A stretch of DNA of 64,000 nucleotides from Dokdonella koreensis DS-123. GTDB lineage: Bacteria; Pseudomonadota; Gammaproteobacteria; Xanthomonadales; Rhodanobacteraceae. Every line of letters begins with the position of its first letter. Positions within the stretch are counted from its first letter, which is position 1. The translations under genes were made by a program, and so were the position numbers. Below, in pieces: positions 11,558 to 29,122 of the stretch. The notes beneath the pieces were generated by a model. That model made no database searches, was not told the origin of the DNA, and worked only from the letters and a program-made list of their open reading frames with translations. The stretch is from contig NZ_CP015249.1 in assembly GCF_001632775.1 (NCBI RefSeq), positions 3,886,686-3,950,685 of the forward strand, written 5' to 3'.

Positions 11558-11603
11558 ACGATGACATCCTCCGCCCTGGCGACACCGGGCGGATTCGCAG
11601 CCG

Positions 11604-11626
11604 GAGCGCCGCCCACAGCGGCGCTC
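11604..11626 (+). terminator. Hairpin after the beta-propeller gene
   Basis: A 9-bp perfect stem (11604-11612 with 11618-11626) encloses a CCACA loop and starts 46 bases after the stop. No T tract follows. Its position supports the GTG at 11663 as start of the next gene and not the ATG at 11561, because that longer frame would run through the hairpin. Confidence 0.5.
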
Positions 11627-11662
11627 TGGTCACGCGCGCACGCGGCGATTACCCTCGCCCCG

Positions 11663-14089
11663 GTGACACGACGGCTGCGCTTCGGCTCCCATCTGATCGA
11701 CCTGGCGACACGCGAGTTGTCCGAGGACGGCCGCCTGCGCCCGTTGTCGCCGCGCGTCTTCGACTGCCTGGCCTACCTGATCGAGCACCGCGACCGTGCC
11801 GTCGGCCGTGACGAGCTGATGGCGGCGGTCTGGGGCAAGGCCGACGTGGCCGATACCCAGCTGGCGCAGGTCATGCTGAAGGCACGCCGCGCGATCGGCG
11901 ATTCCGGCGAAGCGCAACAGATGATCCGCACGGTCGCCGGCTTCGGCTACCGCTGGGTGGCCGAGGTCGTCGCCGAAAGCGACGACCCCGAACCTCCGCC
12001 GGCCGCCGACGCCGGCATCACGCCGGACGAAGCGCCGGCCGCCGGCCCGGCGGCGATCCCGGCACCAGCGACCGAGCCGGCCCCCCGGCCGACTTCGCCC
12101 GACCGCCGGTGGTGGGGTGCGGGCGCGGTACTCGCGCTGGTCCTCGCCGGCCTGGCGGCGCTCGCCTGGCAGCGCCAGCGCCTGGCGAGCGCACCGGCGG
12201 TACCGCCCCCGGCCGCAACCACCGCACCGGCCGGGTCCGTCCCGCCGCAGGCCGACAACCTGGTCGCGGTGCTGCCGGCCACGGTGGACGCCCCGGCCGA
12301 ATGGTCCTGGCTGCGGCTGGGCGTCATGGAATTCGTGGCCGGCCGCCTGCGCCATGCCGGCCAGCGCGTCGCGCCGAGCGAGAACGTCGTCTCGCTGCTG
12401 CGGTCGGGCACCGACGCGGCGGCATTGGCCGAACGCGTGCAGCGCACGCTCGAACCGCGCTGGCAGGTGGTCCCGCAGATCCGCCAGGCCGATGCCGGCT
12501 GGACCGTGAACCTGGAGCTGCGCGAGCGCGGCGGTGCCCCGCGGGCATTCCCGGGACGGGCCGACGACGCGATGACCGCGGCGCGGATCGCCACCGACCA
12601 GCTCCTCGGCGCGGTCGGCGGCACCGCCACCGAGGCGGCGACACCGGCCGCCAGCCCGGACGCGGAGGAGCGCCTGTCGCGCATCGACGCCGCCCTGCTG
12701 ATCGACGACCTGGAGACGGCGCGGCGCCTGGTGCTGGCCGCCCCCGCCGCGGTGCGCGCCACGCCGGAACTGCGGCTGCGCGAGGCGGAGATCGACTTCG
12801 TCGCCGGCCGCAACGAGGAGGCCGGCCGCGTGCTGGCGCGCCTGCTCGACGACCTTCCCGCCGAAACCTATCCGCTGCTGCGGGCACGCGTCGTCAGCGG
12901 GCTGGGCGCCGTGCACGTGCGCCTGGGCGAGATCGCCCAGGCCGAGCGCGAGACCACCGACGCACTGGCCCTGCTCGAGAGCCACGGCGACCCGGCCCTG
13001 ATCGGCAAGACCCATATGCGGCGCGGCGTCGCCCGCAGCCTGCTCGGCCGTCACGACGATGCCCTGGCCGACTTCGCGCAGGCGCGCATCGCGATGCAGC
13101 TGGCCGGCGACTCGCTCGGCCTGGCGCAGATCGAACTCAACGAAGGCGCGCTCAACGGCATGCGCAACCATCCGGCCGCCGCGCTCGCCAGCTTCGAGCG
13201 TGCCGCCGTGCAGTTCGAGCGCTTCGGCATTTCCGGCGAGCTGGCGGCCGCCCTGGCCAACCAGGTCGTCGCGCATCGCGCGCTGCTGCAGCCCGCCGCC
13301 GGCCTCGCCACCAGCGAGCGCGGCCTGGCCCTGCTCGCCGGACCGCTGAACGTCGAGACCGCCCAGCTCATCAAGCTGCGGCGCGCCCAGGCCCTGGTGG
13401 ACTCGGGCCGGTGGCGCGAGGCCGATGGCCTGCTCGAGGAACTCAGTCGCGCGATCGACACCGCGCGCGAGCCCGGGTCGGCGCTGCTGGTCGCGATCGA
13501 GCGCGCACGCGTCGCGCTGGCACGCGGCCAGGTCGAGGACGCGCTGGCGCTGGCCGCACCGGCCAGCGCGGCGACGACCGGCCCGGACCTGGACAGCGCG
13601 CGCGCCGACGCCTGGCTGATCTCGCTGCGCGCCTTGCGCCGGCTGGACCGGGTCGCCGAAGCGACGCAGGCCGCGCAGGCGTTCTCGACCTGGGCCGAGA
13701 GCACCGGCAACAGCTCGGTGCGCATCCAGGCGCAGCTGGCGCTGGCCGAGCAGGCCGTCGCCGAAGGCCGCCCATCGGCGGCCGATCCGCTGTACGCGCA
13801 GGCGCTCAGCGACGCCAACCGGCAGAACGTGCCGCTCGACCTGGCCGAGGTCGCGATCTCCTGGGCCGATACGCTGATCGCCCGTGGCGAGCTGCGCCGT
13901 GCCGTGCCGATCGTCGGCCAGCTGGACCGCTACGCGGCCGGCGACTTCGCCGCCGCCGCGCTGCAGGCCCGCCTGTATCGCGCGCTGGGCCAGGCGCAGG
14001 CCTGGCGCTCGGCGCTCGACCGCGCCCAGGCGCTGGCCGGCGAGCGTTCGCTGCCCCCCGATGCCGATCCGGAACCTGGCAAGCACTGA
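11663..14089 (+). CDS. CadC-like transmembrane winged-helix regulator with TPR-like sensor domain
   Basis: This 808-residue protein begins with a winged helix-turn-helix domain of the OmpR/CadC type (about residues 3-103; RLRPLSPRVFDCLAYLIEH, then VMLKARRAIGD and GFGYRWVAEV). A Pro/Ala/Glu-rich linker and one membrane helix (about 150-170, WGAGAVLALVLAGLAALAW) follow. The rest, about 600 residues of Ala/Leu/Arg-rich helical repeats of TPR style, would lie in the periplasm. It lacks a receiver domain, so it probably senses a periplasmic signal and binds DNA directly. The GTG start is chosen because the DNA-binding domain begins just after it and a terminator-like hairpin lies between this codon and the ATG at 11561; neither start has a clear ribosome site, so the mRNA may be leaderless. 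Its targets are unknown; the adjacent propeller gene is a candidate. Confidence 0.78.
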   Translation: MTRRLRFGSHLIDLATRELSEDGRLRPLSPRVFDCLAYLIEHRDRAVGRDELMAAVWGKADVADTQLAQVMLKARRAIGDSGEAQQMIRTVAGFGYRWVAEVVAESDDPEPPPAADAGITPDEAPAAGPAAIPAPATEPAPRPTSPDRRWWGAGAVLALVLAGLAALAWQRQRLASAPAVPPPAATTAPAGSVPPQADNLVAVLPATVDAPAEWSWLRLGVMEFVAGRLRHAGQRVAPSENVVSLLRSGTDAAALAERVQRTLEPRWQVVPQIRQADAGWTVNLELRERGGAPRAFPGRADDAMTAARIATDQLLGAVGGTATEAATPAASPDAEERLSRIDAALLIDDLETARRLVLAAPAAVRATPELRLREAEIDFVAGRNEEAGRVLARLLDDLPAETYPLLRARVVSGLGAVHVRLGEIAQAERETTDALALLESHGDPALIGKTHMRRGVARSLLGRHDDALADFAQARIAMQLAGDSLGLAQIELNEGALNGMRNHPAAALASFERAAVQFERFGISGELAAALANQVVAHRALLQPAAGLATSERGLALLAGPLNVETAQLIKLRRAQALVDSGRWREADGLLEELSRAIDTAREPGSALLVAIERARVALARGQVEDALALAAPASAATTGPDLDSARADAWLISLRALRRLDRVAEATQAAQAFSTWAESTGNSSVRIQAQLALAEQAVAEGRPSAADPLYAQALSDANRQNVPLDLAEVAISWADTLIARGELRRAVPIVGQLDRYAAGDFAAAALQARLYRALGQAQAWRSALDRAQALAGERSLPPDADPEPGKH

Positions 14090-14642: not shown

Positions 14643-14993
14643 TCAGTAGCTGCGGCCGTCGAACGGAATGCGCTTCAACGTGTCCAGCTCGACGCCTTCC
14701 AGGCAGCGCACGTTGATGGCGGCGGTGGCGCGACCGTCGGGGCCGGTGCCGAAGCCCAGCGGCGCGCAGCCGCAGTGCGTGCAGAAGCGGTGCTGGATGT
14801 GATGCTTGTTGAACGTGTAGGTCGCCAGGTCCGCTTCGCCGGAGCGGAACGTCACCTGCTCGCGCGGCTGGAACCACAGCAGGTAGCCCTTGCGGCTGCA
14901 ATGTGAGCAGTTGCACTCCACGACGTCGCCGATCGGGCCTTCGACGGCGACGTCGAACGCGACCCGTCCGCAATGACAGCTTCCCGAATACAT
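14643..14993 (-). CDS. GFA/CENP-V-family zinc protein
   Basis: This 116-residue protein has the cysteine pattern of the glutathione-dependent formaldehyde-activating (GFA) family: SCHCGRV near the N-terminus, ECNCSHCSRKG in the middle and CTHCGCAPLG later, which bind two zinc ions. The family fold is a beta-tent, and most members have no proven reaction. The name refers to one glutathione-binding homologue, so formaldehyde detoxification should not be assumed. The protein is complete and of normal size. A good promoter (TTGTCC, 18 bases, TATAGT) lies at 15025-15054 on the same strand. The gene is probably transcribed alone, or together with the frameshifted ORF downstream. Confidence 0.88.
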   Translation of the reverse strand: MYSGSCHCGRVAFDVAVEGPIGDVVECNCSHCSRKGYLLWFQPREQVTFRSGEADLATYTFNKHHIQHRFCTHCGCAPLGFGTGPDGRATAAINVRCLEGVELDTLKRIPFDGRSY

Positions 14994-15024
14994 GTCCGGC
15001 GCTCCGCAGCGTGATGGAGCGGCG

Positions 15025-15054
15025 ACTATAGGCGCCCCGTTCGGATCCGGACAA
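15025..15054 (-). promoter_or_regulatory. Sigma-70-like promoter of the GFA gene
   Basis: On the minus strand TTGTCC (complement of 15049-15054) and TATAGT (complement of 15025-15030) are separated by 18 bases and lie about 30 bases upstream of the start at 14993. Confidence 0.6.
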
Positions 15055-15232
15055 GCGGCTCGCGCCGACGCCGGCCACCGCCCCCGCCGCGGCCGGCTTG
15101 CGTGATCGGCCGCCGTTTTGCCTATTGAAGTCTATCTATCGATCCGCAGGGACGTCCCGCTCGCCGGGACCGTCGATGAACCGATACGCGCCGAGCGGAA
15201 CGCGCCGTATCCCGTACGTTCCGGGGAAGAGT

Positions 15233-16687
15233 ATGAACACAGCAACGATCGCACCGGCGCTCCTGGCGCTGCTGGCTGGGGTATGCGGCGGCCTGGCCGC
15301 TCCCGCGGCGGCGGCACCGCCGCGCTGGGACCGGCCGCCGACGGTGGCCGAAGCGCCGGCCGGCGACGCACCGGGCGAATGCAGCGAGGGTTTCGAGGAC
15401 GTCGAGTCGCTGTTCGCCGAAGGCGGCTGGCTGCGCCGCAACACCAGCACGCTCGAGCAGGAATGGGACCAGGCCCTGATGCCGGGCAAGGGCTCCCGCT
15501 GGGAACAGAAGATCGAGTACCTCGATTCCAACGTCGAGGGCCTGTTCTTCAACGCGCATGCCGGCACGCCGCACTCGGTGATCTTCACGAGCCTGTACGC
15601 GCACTCGGTGCTGATGATACCGGGCACCGGCACCGGTACCGGCGTGCTCAGCAACTGGCTGGTCACGCCCGAGATCACGTTCCGCCCCGGCATGCGCCTG
15701 AGCTTCTGGACGCGCAAGGGGTTCTACGAGTACGCGCCGATCTGGGCCGACGCACCGGATCGCATGGTGGTGCGCCTGTGCACGACCGGCGACTGCAGCG
15801 ACGTGGGCACCGGCCCTCACGACACCGGCGCCTTCACGACGACGCTGCTGACGATCAATCCGCAGCTGGGCATGAACGACGACCCGGCCGGGCTGCTGGG
15901 CTATCCCTACAACGGCTGGCGCCAGTTCACGCTGACCGACCTGCCCGCATCGGGCACCGGACGCATCGCGTTCCAGTACTACGTCACCGGTGCGATGGAC
16001 GTGGAAGGCGCATTCTCCGGCGTCGGCAACGGCAACATGATCGCGCTCGACAGCGTCGAACTGCACGGCGCCGGGGCATGTCCGCTGCGGGCGACGCCGC
16101 TGTTCGCCGACGGCTTCGAGCCTGGCGCGCCGCGCTCGATCACCCAGAACACGGGCACCTTCGCGCCGGTGGACGGCCTGGTCGCCACCTGCGTCGCCCC
16201 GACGTCCTGGCTGCGCCGCTTCGACCTCGACGGCGAGTTCGGCCTGGACGGGCGCGTGTCGGTCGACTCGGTCGATTTCGCCGTCGAGCGCAGCTACAGC
16301 ACCGTTCCGGTCGAGGTGCGCCTCTATGCGATTCCCAACGAGGCGGACTTCGTCTATGCCAACCTGGAGCAGATCGGCGCGCGCACGATCACCGTCGACC
16401 AGAACGACCGCCTGTCGATCCGCACCGTCGCCGTGACCGGCACGGTGCCCGATGCGGCCACCCACGACCTGGTCGTGGAGATCCGCAAGAACGAGTTCCA
16501 CCGCGAGTTCTACGTCGGCTTCAACGCGCAGACGCAGACCGCCCCGTCGTACATGGCCTTCCGTGGCGACAACTGCGGCGACCATCCCGAGCCGACCGAC
16601 ATGGAGAACATCGGCGGGGCTCCGGACGCGAGCCTGCTGCTGCGCGTCAACCTCGCCGATCCGGCCGCCGAAACCGGATCGCGCTGA
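15233..16687 (+). CDS. Secreted choice-of-anchor-J domain protein
   Basis: This 484-residue protein has a signal peptide (about residues 1-26) and a cleaved-adhesin/choice-of-anchor-J type domain (about 45-285). Marks of that domain are the CSEGFEDVESLFAEGGW opening, LSNWLVTPEITFRPGMRLSFWTR and the late YYVTGAMDVEG with DSVEL. The motif LFADGFE (residues 290-296) follows and separates it from a second beta-rich domain (about 300-484) that resembles no family I can name. It is probably exported and bound to, or released from, the cell surface. The ATG at 15233 is chosen because GGGGAAGAG lies just before it and the signal peptide begins there. It ends 66 bases before the protease gene on the same strand, so the two may be co-transcribed. 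Confidence 0.8.
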   Translation: MNTATIAPALLALLAGVCGGLAAPAAAAPPRWDRPPTVAEAPAGDAPGECSEGFEDVESLFAEGGWLRRNTSTLEQEWDQALMPGKGSRWEQKIEYLDSNVEGLFFNAHAGTPHSVIFTSLYAHSVLMIPGTGTGTGVLSNWLVTPEITFRPGMRLSFWTRKGFYEYAPIWADAPDRMVVRLCTTGDCSDVGTGPHDTGAFTTTLLTINPQLGMNDDPAGLLGYPYNGWRQFTLTDLPASGTGRIAFQYYVTGAMDVEGAFSGVGNGNMIALDSVELHGAGACPLRATPLFADGFEPGAPRSITQNTGTFAPVDGLVATCVAPTSWLRRFDLDGEFGLDGRVSVDSVDFAVERSYSTVPVEVRLYAIPNEADFVYANLEQIGARTITVDQNDRLSIRTVAVTGTVPDAATHDLVVEIRKNEFHREFYVGFNAQTQTAPSYMAFRGDNCGDHPEPTDMENIGGAPDASLLLRVNLADPAAETGSR

Positions 16688-16753
16688 CGTCCGGCAGAAC
16701 GCCGTGCCGCCCCTTCATCCATCGATCGATCCCTCGATCAGGAGTCCCGTCCG

Positions 16754-19700
16754 ATGTCCGTCCTGACCCTGTCGCGGCCTGCGCTCGCCGCTGCCGTCCT
16801 GCTCGCGCTGGCCACCCGCGGCGAGGCCGCCCCGCCCCTGCTGCACACCCTGCCGCTGCAGGCACCCGCCCCGGAAACGATCCAGAGCCTGCGCGAGGAC
16901 GCGACCCTGCTGGTGCTGCAGGCCGGCGCCTTCGATCCGCTGCGCGAACGCATCGCGTTCCCGGCGGCGCGCGCCGCAGCGCGCGCGGATGCACGCTACG
17001 GCATCGTCCAGTACCGCGCCGGGCAGTCGGCGGCGGCACGGGCCGCGATCGCGCGCGCCGGCGCCGAGATCGTCGGCCACCTGCCGAACACGGCCTTCCA
17101 GGTCCGCGGCGACGCCGATGCACTGGCGCGCATCGGCAACGCGCCGGCGGTGCGCTGGAGCGCCCCGTACCCGGCCGGCTTCAAGCTCGCGACCGGTCTG
17201 CTCGACGGCAGCGTGGCCGCGCGCCACGCGCCGTCGGGCCGCGTCGCGCTCGAGATCCACGGTTTCCGCGGGGAATCGATCGAGCGGCTGGTCGACGTGC
17301 TGCGGGCGACCGGCATCGACCTCGGCATCGGCACGCGTGCCGGCGCCTTCGACCTGCCCTCGGTCCGGGTGGATGTCCATCCGGCCGCGCTCGACGCCCT
17401 GCTGCTGGCCGCCTCGTCGATCGAGGGCATCGCCTGGATCGAGCCCTACCTGCCGGCCACCCTGCACAACCGCGATTCGGTCGGCCCGATCCAGGCCAAC
17501 CAGGCCTCGTGCACCGCGCCGGACGGCGAAGGCGCCTGCGCGGACGGGCTGGACCCGGCACGCGCCACGCTCTGGCGGCGCGGCCTGACCGGTCACGGCC
17601 AGATCGTGGCGATCGCCGACAGCGGCCTGGACCGCAACGAAGACTGGTTCGCCGGGCTCGACCTGGGCGCCGGCCCGAACATCGCCATCACCGATGCGGA
17701 CGATCCGGCACCCGCTCCGCTGGCGACCGGCGCGACCTACCCGGACCGCAAGGTGTACGCCTACTGGGTGCAGCCGGGCGCGAGCGCGTACGACAACAAC
17801 CAGTTCTGCGAGGCCTACAACCGCTACCACGGCACGCACGTGACCGGCACCGCGGCCGGCGACGCCGCGCCGTACGCGAGGCCGGGTGCCGTCGACTACA
17901 CCGACGGCGACGGCATGGCACCGGGCGCCCAGGTGCTGTTCCAGGACCTCGGCGACGATGCCACCGGCTGCCTGTCGATCGCCGATTTCGGGGCGACCCT
18001 GGCCCAGGCCTACGCCGGCGGCGCCGGCATCCACAACGACAGCTGGGGCAATTCCAGCGGCGGCTACTACGTCGGCCACGACGTCAGGGCCGATGCGGCA
18101 CTGTGGTCGAGCGAGAACCTGCTGGTGGTCGCCGCCGCCGGCAATTCCGGACCGGAGGCCACCACCACCGGCTCGCCGGGCAATGCCAAGAACGTGCTGG
18201 CCGTCGGGTCGACGCGGCATGGCCACCTGACGGCGACCTCGGCGTTCTCCAGCCGCGGGCCGACGATGGACGGCCGGCGCAAGCCGGACATCATGGCGCC
18301 CGGCGAATCCATCGTGTCGGCGCGCGGCAACGACGACAACGGTGCCGCCGTGCAGGCACCGCAGACGCAGGCGCTCAGCGGCACCTCGATGGCGGCGCCG
18401 ACGGTCACCGGCGGCGCCGCGCTGCTGCGCCAGTACTTCGGCGACGGCTGGTACCCGTTCGGGCGCGCGACGCCGCGCGAACGCAGCGAGCCGGCGGGCA
18501 CCCTGCTCAAGGCCGCGCTGATCAACGGCACCGCGCCGATCTCGACCAACTGGCCCAGCCACAACGTCGGCTGGGGACGGATCTGGCTCGAGAACAGCCT
18601 CTACTTCCAGGGCGGCACGCGCGGCCTGCGACACTGGGTCCGCGACAACGGCGCCGGCCTGGAAACCGGCGACGTCGACACCTTCCCCGTGACGGTGGCC
18701 GCGGGCGAGGAGCTGCGCGTCACGCTGACCTGGTTCGATCCGGAAGCGGCGCTGGCGGCCAGCCCGGCCCTGGTCAACGACCTCGACCTGGTGGCGGTGG
18801 CGCCGGATGGCCGCCAGTACCTCGGCAATGTGTTCCATGCCGGTCAGTCCGCGACCGGCGGCAGCCCGGACCGGCTCAACACGGTCGAGCACCTGCGCGT
18901 GATCGCACCGGTGGCCGGCGCCTGGACGCTGCGCGTGATCGCGCACGCGGTTCCCGGCAATGGCCGGCCGACCAGCCACCGCCAGGGCTATGCGCTGGTG
19001 GTGGGCGCGCGCATGGGCGTGCTCGGCGACCGGCTGCTGGCCGACGGCTTCGGTGCGGACGATACGCCGGGCGTGGCCGCGCCGGCCTCGCTGCAGACGA
19101 CCGGCAACGGCGAAGAGGGCGTGCGCATCGCGGCGCAGCCGGTGGCCGGCGCCGACGGCTACCAGCTCTACCGCGCCGACGGCAGCTGCGCGACCGCCGA
19201 CCCGGGCCGCTTCCGCTTCGTCGGCCAGTCGCCGTCGGCGACGCTGCTCGACACGCGCAGCCAGGGCGGCGCCGCCTACGCCTACCGCGTCCGCGCCGTG
19301 AAGGACGGCGCGGAGGGACCGCTCTCGCACGCCTGCGTGGACGTGGTCTCCGCCGATGCCTGCTCGATGTCGCTGAACTTCGACGGCGACTCGCTGGCCG
19401 CCGCGTCGGCGCACGCGACCTGCACCGTCGGGCTGTCGTGGCAGCCGGCCACGGCGAACTGCCCCGGCAAGGCGGTCGCCTACCGGGTGCTGCGCGACAC
19501 GACGCCGCTGTTCACCGCGCCCCAGGTCGTCGCGACCGTGGACATGCCGGCCTACAGCGACACCGATGTCGTCGACGGCCAGCCGCGCTTCTACCAGGTC
19601 GAGGCCTTCGACGAGGCCGGCAACACCACCCGCTCGCACATCATCGGCACCACGCCGAGCGGCACCGGCAGCACCGGCGCCGGTGTCTGGACCGACGATG

Positions 19701-20242
19701 CCGACACGCGCACGAACCTGCAGCAGCAATGGCCGTGGTCGATCACCAACGCCGCGGCCGCCAACGGCAGCTTCAGCTACCGCAGTGCGCCGGGCCCGGC
19801 TTATCCGGCCGATACCTGCGCGGCGATCGCCACCGTGCCGCTCACGCTGGCGGCGGGCACGCCGCAGCTGCGTTATGCGGCGCGCTACCAGCTGGAATCG
19901 GAATGGGACGGCGTGGTCGTGGAACTGTCGGCCGACGGCGGTGCCACCTGGACGCCGCTGGTGCCCGCCGGCGGCTACCCGGGCAGTTTCGCGCAGACGA
20001 TGGACCCGCCGGTCAACGCCTGCGGCTATCCGGCCTCGCAGAGCGCGTTCACCGGCGAATCGGCCGGCTTCGCCGCCGGCCAGTTCGTCCAGATCAGCCA
20101 CGACCTGAGTGCCTACGCCGGCCAGGGCGTACTGGTGCGCTGGCGGCTGAGCTCGGACCCGGCCATGCAGGCGGCCGGGTTCTACCTGGACGACATCCGC
20201 GTCGACGCCGAGCTGCCCGGCACGTGCCAGGCCGGTCCTTGA
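16754..20242 (+). CDS. Secreted subtilisin-like (S8) serine protease with C-terminal accessory domains
   Basis: This 1162-residue protease has a signal peptide (about residues 1-25) and a probable propeptide to about residue 270. The S8 catalytic domain shows Asp289 (AIADSGLDRN), His359 (HGTHVTGT) and Ser545 (SGTSMAAPTVTGG). A pro-protein-convertase-like beta domain (about 640-755) is followed by the motif LLADGF (761-766). After it come a fibronectin-like segment (about 775-865), further beta domains and a final choice-of-anchor-J-like region (about 1000-1155). All catalytic residues are present, so it should be an active extracellular endopeptidase. AGGAG lies at 16740-16744. It is followed by a strong hairpin and then by the ECF sigma/kinase pair, which might regulate it. 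Confidence 0.92.
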   Translation: MSVLTLSRPALAAAVLLALATRGEAAPPLLHTLPLQAPAPETIQSLREDATLLVLQAGAFDPLRERIAFPAARAAARADARYGIVQYRAGQSAAARAAIARAGAEIVGHLPNTAFQVRGDADALARIGNAPAVRWSAPYPAGFKLATGLLDGSVAARHAPSGRVALEIHGFRGESIERLVDVLRATGIDLGIGTRAGAFDLPSVRVDVHPAALDALLLAASSIEGIAWIEPYLPATLHNRDSVGPIQANQASCTAPDGEGACADGLDPARATLWRRGLTGHGQIVAIADSGLDRNEDWFAGLDLGAGPNIAITDADDPAPAPLATGATYPDRKVYAYWVQPGASAYDNNQFCEAYNRYHGTHVTGTAAGDAAPYARPGAVDYTDGDGMAPGAQVLFQDLGDDATGCLSIADFGATLAQAYAGGAGIHNDSWGNSSGGYYVGHDVRADAALWSSENLLVVAAAGNSGPEATTTGSPGNAKNVLAVGSTRHGHLTATSAFSSRGPTMDGRRKPDIMAPGESIVSARGNDDNGAAVQAPQTQALSGTSMAAPTVTGGAALLRQYFGDGWYPFGRATPRERSEPAGTLLKAALINGTAPISTNWPSHNVGWGRIWLENSLYFQGGTRGLRHWVRDNGAGLETGDVDTFPVTVAAGEELRVTLTWFDPEAALAASPALVNDLDLVAVAPDGRQYLGNVFHAGQSATGGSPDRLNTVEHLRVIAPVAGAWTLRVIAHAVPGNGRPTSHRQGYALVVGARMGVLGDRLLADGFGADDTPGVAAPASLQTTGNGEEGVRIAAQPVAGADGYQLYRADGSCATADPGRFRFVGQSPSATLLDTRSQGGAAYAYRVRAVKDGAEGPLSHACVDVVSADACSMSLNFDGDSLAAASAHATCTVGLSWQPATANCPGKAVAYRVLRDTTPLFTAPQVVATVDMPAYSDTDVVDGQPRFYQVEAFDEAGNTTRSHIIGTTPSGTGSTGAGVWTDDADTRTNLQQQWPWSITNAAAANGSFSYRSAPGPAYPADTCAAIATVPLTLAAGTPQLRYAARYQLESEWDGVVVELSADGGATWTPLVPAGGYPGSFAQTMDPPVNACGYPASQSAFTGESAGFAAGQFVQISHDLSAYAGQGVLVRWRLSSDPAMQAAGFYLDDIRVDAELPGTCQAGP

Positions 20243-20274
20243 ACGGACCGGGCGGCCGGCCGGCTTCCGATCAC

Positions 20275-20299
20275 CTGCGCGGCGGACGCCGCCGCGCAG
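20275..20299 (+). terminator. Hairpin downstream of the S8 protease gene
   Basis: An 11-bp perfect stem (20275-20285 with 20289-20299) with loop ACG begins 33 bases after the protease stop. It has no T tract; a Rho-assisted or RNA-stabilising end is likely. Confidence 0.55.
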
Positions 20300-20340
20300 C
20301 GGGCACGGGTCCCGCCAGCCGCACCCGGCCACCGCTCCGA

Positions 20341-20368
20341 TTGGACGCCGGTGCGCCGGTCATATCAC
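20341..20368 (+). promoter_or_regulatory. Candidate promoter of the ECF sigma/kinase operon
   Basis: TTGGAC (20341-20346) and TATCAC (20363-20368) are separated by 16 bases, a fair sigma-70 match that would start transcription near 20375. The ten-base word CGCCGGTCAT occurs twice, at 20354-20363 and 20376-20385, flanking the -10 box. Confidence 0.4.
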
Positions 20369-20371
20369 TAT

Positions 20372-20395
20372 GTCCGCCGGTCATCTCCGGCGGAC
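20372..20395 (+). promoter_or_regulatory. Inverted repeat just before the ECF sigma start codon
   Basis: Nine-base arms 20372-20380 and 20387-20395 are exact reverse complements around TCATCT. The repeat ends five bases before the GTG at 20401, so it could be an operator or an RNA hairpin that hides the ribosome site. Confidence 0.5.
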
Positions 20396-20400
20396 AGGCA

Positions 20401-20964
20401 GTGGAACCCCTCGACGACATCACCCGCCTGCTCGACCAGGCCCGCGATGGCGAACACGAGGCGTGGACGCGCCTGCTGCGCTCGGCCTACGGCGACATCA
20501 AGCGGCTGGCGCGCCGGCAGCTGGCCCAGGGCGCGACGATGCCCACGCTCAACACCACCGGGCTGGTCAACGAGTGGTACCTGCGCGTGGCCGACGCCGG
20601 CGACGCGATTCCTGAAAACCGCCGGCACTTCTTCGCGTTGACCGCCAAGATCATGCGCCAGGTCATCTGCACCTACGCGCGCGAGCGGTCTGCCGCCAAG
20701 CGCGGCGGCGACCAGACGCGCATCGACATCGGCCTGGTCGACCGGGAGCTCAGCGAGCAGGCCCACCGCTTCATCGTGCTGGACCAGGCGCTGTCCCAGC
20801 TCGGCAAGGAGAACGAGGACATGGTGCGCGTCGTGGAATGCCGCTTCTTCGCCGGCATGACCGAGCCGGAGACCGCCGAGGCCGTCGGCATCCCGATGCG
20901 CACCGTGCAATGGCTGTGGGCGCAGGCGCGCGGCCGGCTCGCGCACATCATGGAAGAACCATGA
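20401..20964 (+). CDS. ECF sigma factor (TIGR02999-like) paired with a Ser/Thr kinase
   Basis: This 187-residue ECF sigma factor has region 2 (about residues 5-95, with HFFALTAKIMRQVICTYARER as the -10-recognition helix) and region 4 (about 125-185, with FAGMTEPETAEAVGIPMRTV as the helix-turn-helix). It resembles the Sig-70_X6/TIGR02999 type. The usual acidic DAED motif before LVQE in region 2.2, which contacts the beta-prime coiled coil, is replaced by Asn51-Thr52-Thr53-Gly54. In the EcfP/PknT pair of Vibrio a threonine in this place is phosphorylated to switch the factor on. No anti-sigma gene is present; instead a transmembrane kinase overlaps it as ATGA. The GTG at 20401 is the last start that keeps region 2 whole. 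Confidence 0.85.
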   Translation: MEPLDDITRLLDQARDGEHEAWTRLLRSAYGDIKRLARRQLAQGATMPTLNTTGLVNEWYLRVADAGDAIPENRRHFFALTAKIMRQVICTYARERSAAKRGGDQTRIDIGLVDRELSEQAHRFIVLDQALSQLGKENEDMVRVVECRFFAGMTEPETAEAVGIPMRTVQWLWAQARGRLAHIMEEP

Positions 20965-23153
20965 GCGGCTCGACGGTCACCTTCGAGCCCGGTGGCGCGC
21001 TGCGCTGCCGGCTGGTCTCGACGATGCTGGTGGACACGCTGCCCGCGCTGGAGGCCGGTACCCAGATCGGTCCGTTCCGTGTGCTGCGGCTCGTCGGCCA
21101 GGGCGGCCTCGGCGTGGTCTACCTCGCCGAACGCGCCGACGGTGCGTTCGAGCAGCAGGTGGCGCTCAAGCTGATCGCGCCGGAGGTCGATCCCGGCGTC
21201 GCCGAGATCCTGCTCGAACGCGAGCGCCGGCTGCTGGCGCGCCTGCACCATCCGAACATCGCCCGCCTGCTCGACGGCGGCCGCAGCAGCACGGGCCTGC
21301 TGTGGTTCGCGATGGACGCGGTGCAGGGCGTGCGCATCGACCTGTGGTGCGACGAACGTGGCCTCGACGCGCGTGCACGCATCCGGCTGGTGGCCGAGGT
21401 CTGCACGGCGGTCGCCTATGCCCACGCGCGCCTGGTCGTGCATCGCGACATCAAGCCCTCGAACATCCTCGTCGACGACGCCGGCGTGCCGCGACTGCTC
21501 GACTTCGGCATCGCCGCGGCGCTGGACGACGCCAGCGACGATCCCGCGCGGCGCGCCTCGACACCCGGCTATGCCAGCCCGGAACAGCGCCGCGGCGATC
21601 CGGCCGGGATCGCCCAGGACATCTACCAGATCGGCCGGCTGCTGCAGACCCTGCTCGAAGGCCGGCTGTCACGGCACGAGCGTGCCGATGCCGAGGCGAT
21701 CCTGCGGCGCGCGCTGGCCGAGCAGCCCGAGCACCGCTACGCCAACGTCGATGCACTGGCGGCGGACCTGCGCGCGATACTCGAACACCGCCCGGTCGCG
21801 GCACGCGGCAGCGCGCTGGCGTATCGCCTGGGCCGCCTGCTGCGGCGCCACCGCCTGACGGCCGGTGCGCTGGTGCTCGGTGCCCTGACCCTGGTCGGCG
21901 TGGTGGGCTATTTCCTGTGGAGCCTGGACCGGGAGCGCGACCGCGCCGAGCGCGAGGCACAGACGGCCCGGCACGTCAGCGAGTTCATGGTGGGACTGTT
22001 CCGTGCCGCCGACCCGGCGCTGCACGGCGGCCGCGTCCCGACCATCGACACGGTGCTGGCCGATGCACCCGAGCGCATCGAGCGCGAGCTGGCCACCGAA
22101 CCCCTGGTCATGGCCGAGCTGCTGACCACGATCGGCCGCACCTTCGTGGCCTTGCGCGATTTCACGCGCGCCCAGCCGCCGCTGCGCAAGGCGGTCGAAT
22201 TGACCCGCGCGCAGCCGCAGACCCCGCCGCTCGTGCGGGCCGAGCGCCTGCGGGCGCTGGCGATCACGCTGTACGACATCGAGCGGATCGACGAGCGGCG
22301 CGCGCTGCTGGTCGAGGCGATCGCCGGCCTGGACCCGGACTCCCGCGAGCATGCGCGCACGTACAACATCACCCAGCAGAACCTGGCGATGGCCGACCTG
22401 TCGGCCGGCGACAGGACCGCCGCGATCGAACGCCTGCGCCTGGCGCTCGATCATGGCCGCCGCCTGCTGGCCGAGGGCGAACCCTCGCTGGTCGCGGACC
22501 TGCTCGGCCTGGCCAGTGCGCTGGCCGAGGACGGCGATCCGTCCGAGGCGCTGGCGCTCTACCAGGACGCCTATGCCAGCGGCCGCGAATACCTGGGCGT
22601 ACGCCATCCGTACACGATCCTGGCGGCCGGTGGCCTGGCCGGCAGCTTGGCGCGGGTCGGGCGGCACACTGAGGCGACGCAGCCGATGCGCGAAGCCGTC
22701 GCGGGGGCCTTGCAGCTCTACGGGAATCCCTCGCCGAACTATGCGCTGGCCCTGCTGCAGAGCGCGGAGGTCACCGCGGCCGCGGGCCGGCACGGCGAGG
22801 CCGTGCCGGTGCTCCGGCAGGCGCTGGCCGTCTGCGAGCAGCTGCCGCCCGGCAATGACACGCTCAGCGTGAACGTGCTGGAGGCCCTCGGCGATACGCT
22901 GCTGGCCGGCGGCGATGCCGTGGCGGCCGAGGCCAGCTACCGCCGCATGCTCGACCTCAACCGCGACGGCAGCGGTGCCCAGACACTGGATCGCGGCCAG
23001 CGGCCGCTCAAGCTGGCCGGCGCCCTCGCCGCGCAGGGGCGGTGCACCGAGGCGGCGCAGTGGCGGCAGACCGCCCGGCAGCGCGCCGAGCGCTTCCCAC
23101 CCGATGCCGCACTGCGGGCCCGGCTCGATGCACCGCTGGCGGCGTGCGACTGA
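20961..23153 (+). CDS. Transmembrane Ser/Thr protein kinase with TPR-like extracytoplasmic domain
   Basis: This 730-residue kinase has a Hanks-type domain (about residues 38-280): glycine loop GQGGLGVVY, Lys70 in VALKLI, His161-Arg-Asp163 in HRDIKPSN and Asp181 in DFG, so the catalytic core is complete. One membrane helix follows (about 300-322, GALVLGALTLVGVVGYFLW). The remaining 400 residues are helical TPR-like repeats, predicted outside the cytoplasm. This architecture is typical of kinases encoded beside TIGR02999/ECF43-like sigma factors. The start overlaps the sigma gene stop in ATGA, so both are made together. The likely substrate is that sigma factor; the signal sensed by the TPR domain is unknown. 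The first 37 residues before the kinase domain are unusual and unassigned. Confidence 0.9.
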   Translation: MSGSTVTFEPGGALRCRLVSTMLVDTLPALEAGTQIGPFRVLRLVGQGGLGVVYLAERADGAFEQQVALKLIAPEVDPGVAEILLERERRLLARLHHPNIARLLDGGRSSTGLLWFAMDAVQGVRIDLWCDERGLDARARIRLVAEVCTAVAYAHARLVVHRDIKPSNILVDDAGVPRLLDFGIAAALDDASDDPARRASTPGYASPEQRRGDPAGIAQDIYQIGRLLQTLLEGRLSRHERADAEAILRRALAEQPEHRYANVDALAADLRAILEHRPVAARGSALAYRLGRLLRRHRLTAGALVLGALTLVGVVGYFLWSLDRERDRAEREAQTARHVSEFMVGLFRAADPALHGGRVPTIDTVLADAPERIERELATEPLVMAELLTTIGRTFVALRDFTRAQPPLRKAVELTRAQPQTPPLVRAERLRALAITLYDIERIDERRALLVEAIAGLDPDSREHARTYNITQQNLAMADLSAGDRTAAIERLRLALDHGRRLLAEGEPSLVADLLGLASALAEDGDPSEALALYQDAYASGREYLGVRHPYTILAAGGLAGSLARVGRHTEATQPMREAVAGALQLYGNPSPNYALALLQSAEVTAAAGRHGEAVPVLRQALAVCEQLPPGNDTLSVNVLEALGDTLLAGGDAVAAEASYRRMLDLNRDGSGAQTLDRGQRPLKLAGALAAQGRCTEAAQWRQTARQRAERFPPDAALRARLDAPLAACD

Positions 23154-23231
23154 CCTCCCGCTGCCGGTCCATCGGCGATTCAGGTGCAGGGACTAGGCTG
23201 CGGGGACCGAAGTCGTAGGGAGGTTGCCGCG

Positions 23232-23558
23232 ATGATCCATCCCGCTCTTTCCCGCTGCGCCGGCCTCGTGCTGGCGTTCACGGCCGCCGGCGCCGCCTGG
23301 GCGCAGGGCGGCGACCGCGTCCACCGGTTCCAGGACCGCCAGGGCGCGCAGGTCGAGCTGCACTCGGGCCAGCCGGTGTACCCGGCCGACGGCCCCGCTC
23401 CCGCCTTCGCCGCCCTCGATGCCGACCGCAACGGCAGCATTTCCGCCGACGAGGCACGGGCCTATCCGCTGCTGGCCACCGATTTCCTCTACGCCGACAG
23501 CAATCGCGACGGCCGGATCTCGGCGCGCGAATACGCACGCTGGACCGCGCAACGCTGA
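23232..23558 (+). CDS. Exported two-EF-hand protein
   Basis: This 108-residue protein has a signal peptide (about residues 1-25, ending AAWAQ) and a short mature part with two canonical 12-residue calcium loops, DADRNGSISADE and DSNRDGRISARE, both with acidic residues at positions 1, 3, 5 and 12 or acceptable substitutes. It should bind two calcium ions in the periplasm or outside. AGGGAGG lies just before the ATG at 23232, and a TAGGCT box about 40 bases upstream may be its promoter. It lies 78 bases after the kinase gene, so it may also be read through from the sigma/kinase operon; calcium buffering for the nearby protease is conceivable but unproven. It converges on rsuA with a 16-base gap. 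Confidence 0.82.
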   Translation: MIHPALSRCAGLVLAFTAAGAAWAQGGDRVHRFQDRQGAQVELHSGQPVYPADGPAPAFAALDADRNGSISADEARAYPLLATDFLYADSNRDGRISAREYARWTAQR

Positions 23559-23574
23559 GCGCGCGGCGGCACGG

Positions 23575-24279
23575 TCAATCGGCGGCGAACACCCGCGCGA
23601 TCGCCGCGGCGTCGAGCGCGCGCCAGGCACCGGCCTCCAGGTCATCGAGTGCGAGGCCACCGACCGCCGCGCGATGCAGCGCGACGACGTGGTTGCCGGT
23701 GGCCGCGAACATCCGCCGCACCTGGTGATAGCGGCCTTCGAAGACGGTCAGCCGCGCCCGGCGCGGCGCCAGCACCTCCAGCCGCGCCGGCGCGAGCGGC
23801 GTGGTCTCCGATTCGAGCAGCAGCGTGCCGCTGGCGAACAGGGCGGCCTCGTCGCCACGCAGGTCCTCGGCCAGGTCCGCTTCGTAGACCTTGGCGACCT
23901 GCGCACGCGGCGAGATGATCCGGTGCAGCAGTCCGCCGTCGTCGGTCAGCAGCAGCAGGCCCGAGGTGTCGCGATCGAGCCGGCCGACCGTCGACAGCAG
24001 CGGACTGCGCAGCCGGTAGCGTTCGGGCAGCAGGTCGTAGACCAGCCGTCCGGCATCGCGCGTGGAACAGGTGTAGCCGGTCGGCTTGTGCAGCATCAGC
24101 GACAGGCCGGGCGGCGGGTCGAGCGGCTCGCCGTCGATGCGGACGTCGGCAGGGGCGACCGCGTCGTCGGCATAGAGCACCTCGCCGTCGGCGAGCGTGA
24201 CGCGGCCCTCGCGGAACATCGCGGCGACCTGCTTGCGGCTGCCGTAGCCGAGGTTGGCGATCAGGCGCACCAGCTTCAT
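23575..24279 (-). CDS. rsuA: RsuA-family 16S rRNA pseudouridine synthase
   Basis: This 234-residue protein has an S4-like RNA-binding start (KLVRLIANLGYGSRKQVAAM) and the RsuA/RluB catalytic motif GRLDRDTSGLLLLT, whose first Asp is the nucleophile. It also has the late motif EGRYHQVRRMFAATGN typical of the family. RsuA makes pseudouridine 516 in 16S rRNA; RluB/RluE relatives act on 23S rRNA, and the length and S4 form favour RsuA. The start overlaps the stop of the upstream methyltransferase gene by four bases, so the two ribosome-modification genes are co-translated. The gene ends close to the convergent EF-hand gene. Confidence 0.88.
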   Translation of the reverse strand: MKLVRLIANLGYGSRKQVAAMFREGRVTLADGEVLYADDAVAPADVRIDGEPLDPPPGLSLMLHKPTGYTCSTRDAGRLVYDLLPERYRLRSPLLSTVGRLDRDTSGLLLLTDDGGLLHRIISPRAQVAKVYEADLAEDLRGDEAALFASGTLLLESETTPLAPARLEVLAPRRARLTVFEGRYHQVRRMFAATGNHVVALHRAAVGGLALDDLEAGAWRALDAAAIARVFAAD

Positions 24280-27112: not shown

Positions 27113-29122
27113 ATGAAGCAGCGCGTGGGTCACTACGACATCGTCGCCGAACTCGGACGCGGCGGCATGGGCGTGGTCTACAAGGGATTCGAGGCGGCGC
27201 TGAACCGCTACGTCGCGATCAAGGTGCTGGCCGACTCGCTGGCCGACGACCCCGCCGTGCGCGAACGCTTCCTGCGCGAAGCGCGCAGCATGGCGGCCCT
27301 GAACGACCCGCACATCATCCAGATCCACGCCATCGGCGAGGACGCCGGCCATCCGTACTTCGTCATGGAATTCGTCGAGGGTGAGTCGCTCGGCTCGCTG
27401 CTCAAGCGCGAAGGCCGGCTGACGCTGGAGCAGTCGCTGAAGGTCATCCACCAGACCGCCTCGGGCCTGGCGACCGCGCACGACCGCGGCGTGGTCCATC
27501 GCGACATCAAGCCGGGCAACCTGATGGTCAGCAGCCGCGGCGCGATCAAGATCGCCGACTTCGGCATCGCGCTGTCCAACCACGACCTGTCCAAGAAGCT
27601 CACGACCACCGGCGAATTCGTCGGCACGCCCGGCTACCTGTCGCCGGAAGTGTGCCTCGGCAAGCCGGTCGACCGGCGCTCGGACATCTTCTCGCTCGGC
27701 ATCGTGCTGTTCGAGATGCTGACCGGCAAGATGCCGTTCACCGACGAGTCGCCGCTGGGGCTGATGCTGGAGGTCGTGCGGGCGGAAATTCCCGACGTGC
27801 GCCAGCTCAACGCCAATGTCGACGAGGAGACCTCGCGCATCCTGTCGCGGATGATCGCCAAGGACCCGGCCAGCCGCTACCAGGACTGCCACGAGCTGGC
27901 CGCCGACCTGCAGCGCAACCCGCTGGTCGCCCGCAGCGGGCCGATCACGCTGCAGCCCAAGCTGTCGCCGGCTGCCGCGACCGTGATCGGCCAGAAGACG
28001 CCGCTGCCGTCCGCGGTGACGACGCCGATCACCGCGCCGACACCGATCCGGCCGTCGGCGGGCGCGCCGACGCACATCAGCGCCGGCGCGGCGGTGGCGC
28101 CGCCGGTGCCGGGAGCGCCGGCCCGTCCTTCGGTCCTCGACCGGCCGACCGTGCATGCCTCCGCGCCGAAGCGCACGAGCGCCCTGCCCTGGGCGATCGC
28201 CGCGCTGCTGGTGCTGGCCGCCGGTGCCGGCGCCTGGACGCTGCGCGACCGGATTCCCGGCCTGGCCGGCCCGACCACCACCTCGACCCAGACCATCACC
28301 GCGACCGCGGCGACCGCGGATGCGCCGGCCAGCGCGTCGATCTCGTCGGTCGTCACGCCGCCGATCCCGGCACCGCCGCCCTCCGGACCGTCGGATCCGG
28401 CGGCCGGGAGCACGCCCTCGCCGGCCGATACGGCAGCCGTGGTCCCGACGCCGGACACCGCCGCGCCGCAGGCGCCCGGCGCCACGACCGGCGCGGCACC
28501 GCCCGAAGACACGACCGCCGGCGCACGGGCCCAGAGCGATCCGCCGCCGGCATCACCGGCCGAACCGCCGGCGCCACGTGCCGCACAGGCCGATGTCGAG
28601 GCCCTGCGCAACCTGCCGGCCGCCCAGGCCGAAAGCGGCGCGCCGCCGCAGATCGCCAAGGCGCCGCCGCCCCCGAAGCCGGCCGCGCCGGCAAAGCCGC
28701 GCGTGCCGACGGTGGCGGTGGTCTTCGGCGGCGACGAGGTCATCGCCGAGCCCGCCCGCGACGCCATCACCGACCTGCTGCAGAGCCGGGGCTTCCGCGT
28801 GATCGAAGCCGGCAGCGTCTCGGGCAGCCAGCCCAACCTCAAGGCCCTGTCGGGTCGTGCCGATGCGGTCGTCTTCGTGCAGGCCCGTCCGGTCGGCAGC
28901 CAGGAGATCCACTACTACGGCCAGAGCTCGACGCTCTACACCGTGCAGGTGGCGGTCAAGGCGTATCGCGTCGGCGACGGCAGCGTGCTGTGGAGCAGCC
29001 CGGCCGAGCAGGTCAACTTCACGACGCTCAACGCCGCCGAGAAGGCCCGCGAGGTGGTCGATCCGATGCTCGACGCCGTCGATCGCAACCTGGCCGAGTT
29101 CCGTCCCGGGCGCCGTGGCTGA
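27113..29122 (+). CDS. Transmembrane Ser/Thr protein kinase with Pro-rich linker and CsgG-like C-terminal region
   Basis: This 669-residue kinase begins directly with its catalytic domain (about residues 8-265): GRGGMGVVYKG, Lys37 in VAIKVL, His129-Arg-Asp131 in HRDIKPGN and Asp149 in DFG, followed by GTPGYLSPE. A long Pro/Ala/Thr linker leads to a membrane helix (about 360-378, LPWAIAALLVLAAGAGAW). It is followed by another low-complexity stretch and a folded C-terminal domain (about 535-665; PTVAVVFGGDEVIAEPARD, GFRVIEAGS, TVQVAVKAYRVGDGSVLW). That last domain resembles CsgG/FlgT-like lipoprotein folds that bind outer-membrane or secretion partners. It would lie in the periplasm and may be the sensor. 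The next gene begins 24 bases downstream, which suggests joint work with the AsmA-like protein. Confidence 0.88.
   Translation: MKQRVGHYDIVAELGRGGMGVVYKGFEAALNRYVAIKVLADSLADDPAVRERFLREARSMAALNDPHIIQIHAIGEDAGHPYFVMEFVEGESLGSLLKREGRLTLEQSLKVIHQTASGLATAHDRGVVHRDIKPGNLMVSSRGAIKIADFGIALSNHDLSKKLTTTGEFVGTPGYLSPEVCLGKPVDRRSDIFSLGIVLFEMLTGKMPFTDESPLGLMLEVVRAEIPDVRQLNANVDEETSRILSRMIAKDPASRYQDCHELAADLQRNPLVARSGPITLQPKLSPAAATVIGQKTPLPSAVTTPITAPTPIRPSAGAPTHISAGAAVAPPVPGAPARPSVLDRPTVHASAPKRTSALPWAIAALLVLAAGAGAWTLRDRIPGLAGPTTTSTQTITATAATADAPASASISSVVTPPIPAPPPSGPSDPAAGSTPSPADTAAVVPTPDTAAPQAPGATTGAAPPEDTTAGARAQSDPPPASPAEPPAPRAAQADVEALRNLPAAQAESGAPPQIAKAPPPPKPAAPAKPRVPTVAVVFGGDEVIAEPARDAITDLLQSRGFRVIEAGSVSGSQPNLKALSGRADAVVFVQARPVGSQEIHYYGQSSTLYTVQVAVKAYRVGDGSVLWSSPAEQVNFTTLNAAEKAREVVDPMLDAVDRNLAEFRPGRRG

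Follow-up and report, generated by a model that had tools for sequence, protein, structure and literature searches.

The locus considered here raises the question of how a sigma factor can become active when the acidic motif of its region 2.2 is missing, and which genes it then serves. The gene in question lies at 20401..20964 (+) of the window, by which we mean the whole 64,000-nucleotide stretch of Dokdonella koreensis DS-123 that was analysed (NZ_CP015249.1, positions 3,886,686 to 3,950,685); it has a GTG start, encodes an ECF43-type extracytoplasmic function (ECF) sigma factor of 187 residues and is followed by the gene of a transmembrane Ser/Thr kinase. The ECF43 family is treated in PMC8999054, PMC8103513, PMC6653060 and PMC13147305, and its activation by a partner kinase is known from work on Vibrio, Hyphomonas and Xanthomonas (PMC8999054, PMC13147305). 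We consider it probable that the window pair is likewise a kinase-activated ECF43 sigma factor with Thr53 as its switch, likely in an autoregulated operon. The kinase-activated type, the loss of the acidic motif and the coupling to a kinase had already been put forward in a sequence-only reading of this DNA, and all three are supported. The pair as such is a real and ordinary ECF43 pair, found in an unusual genomic setting.

The sigma factor and its region 2.2 motif

The family assignment is based on the translation, profile scores and alignment. The window sigma factor scores 155.2 bits against TIGR02999, which is above the curated cut-off of 126.15, and 132.3 bits against PF07638 (cut-off 21.1); TIGR02999 is the model that was scored and we take it to be equivalent to ECF43, an equation carried over from the sequence-only reading. 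In the translation, N51-T52-T53-G54 (codons at 20551..20562, +) is followed by LVNE, and in the alignment NTTG falls in the place of EAQD, ETAD and DTDD in three acidic-motif sigma factors of the same genome, which bears out the claim that it replaces a motif of the DAED type. With NTTG in this place, the alignment gives no sign that region 2 has its canonical acidic motif at some other position, and this possibility is not supported. The notion that NTTG is an oddity is on the other hand without support, since all ECF43 members are described as lacking DAED and EcfP carries STTA (PMC8999054), while QTTA is given as the consensus of the family, with 88% conservation of the Thr (PMC13147305). 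The absence of DAED is therefore the rule in ECF43, and as a variant of QTTA the motif NTTG is ordinary.

Sequences of solved structures gave no match to the window sigma factor at E 0.01, and in a Foldseek search with the sigma model ECF sigma factors ranked first, none of them at E <= 0.001 and all with low TM-scores, a result that supports just the kind of fold. It had also been claimed that no anti-sigma gene lies beside the sigma gene, and this holds within the four neighbouring proteins scanned (the anchor-J protein, the S8 protease, the EF-hand protein and the regulator at 11561, the last scanned by Pfam alone), none of which gave an anti-sigma match.

Thr53 as the probable switch residue

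The sequence-only reading had left open which of the two adjacent threonines is phosphorylated and had called for an alignment with TIGR02999-type proteins. Such an alignment was made from the 21 ECF43-type sigma factors of the D. koreensis genome and 80 relatives from named contigs (n=101), the latter being the best of 180 confirmed. They had been collected with patterns based on the subgroup of the window, from parts other than the motif, and thus do not sample the family at random. Thr is found at column 53 in 92 of the 101 sequences (20/21 in the own genome and 72/80 in other genomes) and at column 52 in 70, the other 31 having Pro, Ala, Val or Arg at this position and all of them carrying Thr at 53. 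Furthermore, the phosphorylated residue of EcfP is the second Thr of STTA (PMC8999054), and in EcfK the equivalent Thr51 is phosphorylated (PMC13147305). By conservation and by analogy Thr53 (20557-20559) is thus the likely switch residue of the two that had been proposed, and Thr52 was dropped on conservation (70/101 vs 92/101).

The nine sequences without Thr53 (L013 of the own genome and L075, L103, L120, L130, L131, L133, L135 and L138) all read Asp-Thr-x at columns 51-53. Asp51 is clearly enriched among them (9/9 vs 33/92, Fisher P 2e-4) and Thr52 weakly so (9/9 vs 61/92, Fisher P 0.054), and they may represent a class with another switch, possibly shifted by one residue. This bears on the notion that phosphorylation of Thr52 or of a linker Ser/Thr, instead of or beside that of Thr53, activates the window sigma factor, for which speak the immediate vicinity of Thr52 to Thr53, the constant presence of Thr52 together with Asp51 in the nine exceptions, and the fact that EcfK is phosphorylated at several linker sites, Thr106 among them (PMC13147305). 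We nevertheless find it rather improbable, given that almost a third of the sequences dispense with Thr52 and all of these keep Thr53, that the enrichment of Thr52 in the exceptions is weak, and that the window sigma factor has an Asp at the place mapped to Thr106.

This last point concerns a second EcfK site that had been missed by the sequence-only reading and that here appears to be replaced by Asp109 (20725..20727, +). The mapping goes by residue spacing through the own paralogue L009 rather than by an alignment of EcfK; L009 carries QATE, the motif of EcfK, and after it a Thr in the linker at a distance of 55 residues, which equals the spacing from 51 to 106; in the column of this linker Thr the window sigma factor has Asp109, so that by this indirect mapping it lacks the EcfK-type Ser/Thr. 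The column as a whole holds Ser/Thr in 39 of 101 sequences and Asp/Glu in another 39, and in the sigma model the linker residues 103-113 have a predicted local distance difference test score (pLDDT) under 50. An acid at 109 need not bypass the switch, since the T106E variant of EcfK is functional and not constitutively active (PMC13147305). Asp109 accordingly points to one-site switching at Thr53, as far as an indirect mapping in a poorly modelled linker can indicate it.

The partner kinase and the pairing of sigma factors with kinases

The gene at 20961..23153 (+) encodes a transmembrane Hanks Ser/Thr kinase of 730 residues with a C-terminal TPR domain, as judged from motifs, profiles and alignment, and its ATG overlaps the sigma stop codon as ATGA. 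It scores 112 bits against Pkinase and 81 bits against TPR_12, has the catalytic motifs GQGGLGVVY, VALK, HRDIKPSN, DFG and TPGYASPEQ, and its Lys70, Asp163, Asn168 and Asp181 are invariant in an alignment of four sequences. A single strong hydrophobic segment, the predicted membrane helix of residues 298-323 (21852..21929, +), is followed by the TPR matches, and the protein thereby combines the intact motifs, membrane helix and external domain of a Hanks-type transmembrane kinase; the intact, overlapping kinase with TPRs described in the sequence-only reading is thus confirmed by motifs, profiles and coordinates. Among sequences of solved structures the best match by far is 9EED (E 1.6e-45, the next being 3.3e-29), which is PknS (PMC13147305). 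In the structural model the kinase domain is mostly under pLDDT 50 (with four sequences aligned) and the TPR part is mostly well modelled.

The association of sigma factor and kinase extends throughout the genome. PF07638 has 27 matches in it, 21 of which were treated as ECF43-type after alignment, the remaining six being three aligned matches with an acidic motif and three short ones; kinases over the Pkinase cut-off number 32. A kinase domain lies within 3 kb of all 21 ECF43-type sigma factors and within 1 kb of 18, with 21 different kinases involved, as compared to a mean of 0.5 and a maximum of 4 within 1 kb when placement is random (2000 trials). In the 80 outside loci a kinase motif was seen close downstream in 57, elsewhere in the locus in 14 and not at all in 9. 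The pairing throughout the own genome, together with the loss of the acidic patch and the conservation of Thr53, makes it very improbable that the two genes are mere neighbours and that the sigma factor needs no phosphorylation for its activity and is regulated through its own expression. Such a control could be afforded by Asp109 together with a perfect inverted repeat of 10 bp that lies immediately ahead of the sigma start (20371..20396), but the equivalent arms in the related locus L060 pair at just 8 of 10 positions and the RNA fold is ordinary for its composition (z -1.25), and the repeat was for the same reasons rejected as a conserved RNA hairpin.

It should also be mentioned that two of the acidic sigma matches, L022 (2553608-2554090, ETAD) and L024 (4265431-4265910, DTDD), are each followed after about 250 bases by a Hanks kinase domain, and that a second Hanks kinase domain in the window, at 27134-27883, is the best Pkinase match of the whole genome, the nearest ECF43-type sigma factor to it being the window's own, some 6 kb off.

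A cassette with a choice-of-anchor-J protein

The unusual feature of the setting is a choice-of-anchor-J protein of secreted type, encoded at 15233..16687 (+) and recognised as the conserved neighbour of the pair. The window subgroup comprises four sigma factors of the own genome, the sisters being L012 (in locus L140, 75% identical), L014 (L142, 57%) and L016 (L141, 61%). In 58 other genomes of the family that were sampled, including two from the same genus, the sigma factors found at E <= 1e-30 did not exceed 47% identity to that of the window; closer relatives are found in Lysobacteraceae bacterium PS02065 (L060, 79%) and in a Dokdonella metagenome-assembled genome (MAG; L061, 64%, and L071, 57%). 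A choice-of-anchor-J gene lies upstream, on the same strand, of all four own sigma genes, NF038128 being over its cut-off in all four, and it likewise precedes the pairs in L060, L061 and L071, that is in seven of seven cassettes of the subgroup; in L060, where the locus ends within the gene, its identity was established by alignment. It is the next gene upstream of the sigma gene, or the next but one where an S8 gene intervenes, and the gap to the sigma gene is 9 bases in L141, an overlap in L061 and 173-233 bases in L140, L142 and L071, gene limits outside the window being those of a home-made gene finder. That the anchor-J proteins are secreted was judged by eye from their N termini, which resemble signal peptides.

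Of the 80 outside ECF43 loci, the 77 other than L060, L061 and L071 gave no match at E 1e-5 to a profile made from the seven cassettes, within flanks of up to 5 kb, some of them shortened by contig ends; a scan of viral contigs gave one weak relative. Of the 11 anchor-J genes over the cut-off in the genome, five are found no more than 6 kb from an ECF43 sigma gene, against 0.6 expected at random (P 1.5e-4), although four of the five belong to the sister cassettes and do not count as independent. The open-access literature, judged by titles and abstracts, yielded no link between choice-of-anchor proteins and sigma factors. An S8 (subtilase) protease with an InhA-like MAM domain (16754..20242, +) stands between anchor J and sigma factor in the window and in L060 (71% identical) alone among the seven cassettes, and relatives of the EF-hand protein encoded downstream of the kinase (23232..23558, +) were not found in the stretches examined around the other six pairs.

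Anchor J, sigma factor and kinase appear to have been inherited together, since their identity tables correlate at 0.87-0.93 over the seven cassettes; their trees disagree in some branches. The kinase domain of the window is 79% identical to that of L140 and 78% to that of L060, whereas the TPR domains are just 47% and 57% identical, and the catalytic part is thus kept where the sensor diverges. This, together with the 75% identity of the window and L140 sigma factors and the occurrence of one promoter-like pattern in three of the four own cassettes, would be expected if the window kinase and its L140 sister phosphorylated each other's sigma factors and the pair were a branch of a cross-wired family. 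The apparent co-inheritance of the three genes, which dedicated pairs would also show, speaks against such a shared network, and we think it unlikely, if less so than activation through Thr52 or the linker.

Some further observations on these neighbourhoods may be added. In the next nearest own pair (L018, 47%; L143:6464-11620) two divergent delta-60-repeat proteins replace anchor J. A stretch resembling LFADGFE recurs inside or at the end of secreted-type proteins, namely anchor J and the S8 protease of the window and proteins of L140, L141 and L143. Finally, window 11561-14089 encodes an N-terminal Trans_reg_C domain with TPRs, a second TPR-bearing regulator near the cassette.

A promoter-like motif upstream of the anchor-J genes

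The motif comparison covers six cassettes, the L060 locus ending inside its anchor-J gene. The motif CGGGTTT-N12/13-CCTATTGA is found upstream of the anchor-J genes in L141, L061, L142 and L071, and L141 and L142 share it though the anchor-J proteins of these paralogous cassettes are just 37% identical; L140 has a weaker form in the same layout. In the own genome of 4.45 Mb the pattern GGNTTTN{13,14}CTATYK occurs three times, each time before the anchor-J gene of a sister cassette, and its reversed control has no hit. In the genome of the Dokdonella MAG (G059) two of five hits are the cassettes L061 and L071, and the long frames listed at the other three included no cassette gene. Five patterns were run on whole genomes, the first giving 2 hits, both of them cassettes (control 0); a two-mismatch pattern over four genomes gave 10 hits with 4 cassettes (control 3), and with a shorter spacer 8 hits with 4 cassettes (control 1), while a looser pattern over three genomes gave 10 hits with 2 cassettes (control 4). 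A hit with one mismatch, in L176, falls at the end of a coding frame. On these grounds the motif is a good promoter candidate in the sister cassettes.

For the window itself the candidate is GTTTT-N12-CTATCT at 15115..15137 (+), 95 bases before the anchor-J start and overlapping GCCTATTGA at 15120-15128; it matches the sister motif in part. In a weight-matrix scan that belongs to an earlier reading of this promoter as GCCTATTGA alone, the second element scored higher than all random 300-base stretches (up to 1500 drawn), and for both elements combined p is about 0.006 in the window, 0.046 in L140 and 0.009 in the L143 region. The matrix is however not specific, as is evident from the L140 and L143 values and from L060, where a coding stretch in the last part of the S8 gene likewise beat every random stretch. 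The layout GTTTT-N12-CTAT was then preferred as it is that of the sister cassettes, a choice made after seeing the data. The genome search for a shared promoter motif that the sequence-only reading had suggested was thus successful for three sister cassettes and gave a partial match in the window, and that the copy at 15115-15137 is the window promoter is plausible, if a weaker case than that of the sisters. On the coding strand, the stretch 14900-23700 gave no promoter of the sigma-70 consensus type.

The 9-mer GCCTATTGA alone was rejected as the window promoter; it occurs once exactly in the window, and with one mismatch it has 4 occurrences as compared to 3.7 in shuffles. A further element, TGGACGC-N19-CTATG, is found shortly before the sigma start both in the window (20342-20372) and in L060 (4942-4972) and is a possible second sigma promoter.

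Proposed mechanism and relation to known systems

Taken together, the following course of events may be proposed. Without stimulus the sigma factor would bind RNA polymerase poorly, N-T-T-G replacing the acidic patch of region 2.2. A signal on the TPR domain, presumably in the periplasm, would activate the cytoplasmic domain of the partner kinase, which would phosphorylate Thr53, and the phosphate would supply the charge missing for contact with the beta' subunit and render the sigma factor active. Phosphorylation of Thr53 by this kinase and the resulting gain of polymerase binding are inferred by analogy with the known pairs. With the linker contact already acidic at Asp109, a single switch site would be expected. 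The local output would likely be an operon of anchor J, S8 protease, sigma factor and kinase, transcribed from a promoter before the anchor-J gene; gene order and motif suggest that it is autoregulated, and if the promoter reading is right the regulon of the subgroup would be narrow and consist mainly of its own operons.

Several points weigh against this reading. Nine of the 101 aligned sequences have no Thr at column 53, and eight of the nine have a kinase in the stretch examined. Furthermore, EcfK still functions with T51A alone, and a phosphate on either T51 or T106 is held to be enough (PMC13147305), so Thr53 need not be essential. The constitutive acid at 109 could lower the dependence on the kinase, and as many as 32 kinases in one genome leave room for cross-talk. 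As to the operon, the window candidate promoter is without the GG before its first element and is missed by GGNTTTN{13,14}CTATYK, the looser pattern performs at the level of noise in the own genome (4 hits with 2 cassettes vs 3 in the control), and the weight-matrix scan also scored high at places that are no such promoter. The motif was moreover defined on the sister cassettes, and what its pattern tells us is therefore limited to the lack of hits elsewhere.

The type of switch is not new, the window pair being one of many ECF43 copies with a Ser/Thr kinase in the genome. EcfP/PknT of Vibrio parahaemolyticus is, like the window pair, a sigma factor without DAED beside a Ser/Thr kinase and has an uncharged motif with two Thr residues, STTA in EcfP as against NTTG here, EcfP being compared by its description only; it is tied to polymyxin resistance, whereas the conserved neighbour in the window is a secreted-type protein (PMC8999054). 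EcfK/PknS of Xanthomonas citri has the same kinase layout, with a cytoplasmic kinase domain, a membrane helix and periplasmic TPRs, and differs, likewise by description only, in having QATE and linker sites including Thr106 where the window has NTTG and Asp109 (PMC13147305); EcfK drives a type VI secretion system. The sister cassettes in the own genome, the Dokdonella sp. MAG and Lysobacteraceae bacterium PS02065 have the same order of anchor J, sigma factor and kinase, and differ from the window in that the S8 protease is found elsewhere in L060 alone and in that the promoter motif matches the pattern in L140, L141, L142, L061 and L071 and is partial in the window. What looks new is that the window pair and its sisters accompany a secreted-type protein, and that a promoter-like signal rare in the genome is common to the sister copies.

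A more speculative and rather doubtful extension is that the anchor-J protein is the main product of the sigma factor and at the same time a ligand or brake of the TPR domain, the four copies then forming a self-contained surface-protein switch. If true, each copy would sense the fate of its own secreted anchor-J product and drive almost only its own operon. With 21 ECF43 sigma factors and four close cassettes with diverged sensors, the genome is in any case well suited to studying how parallel pairs are insulated from each other, and to asking what TPR sensors read and which promoter an ECF43 sigma factor recognises. Since the linker place is already acidic, the window pair furthermore offers a direct test between the one-site model of EcfP and the two-site model of EcfK.

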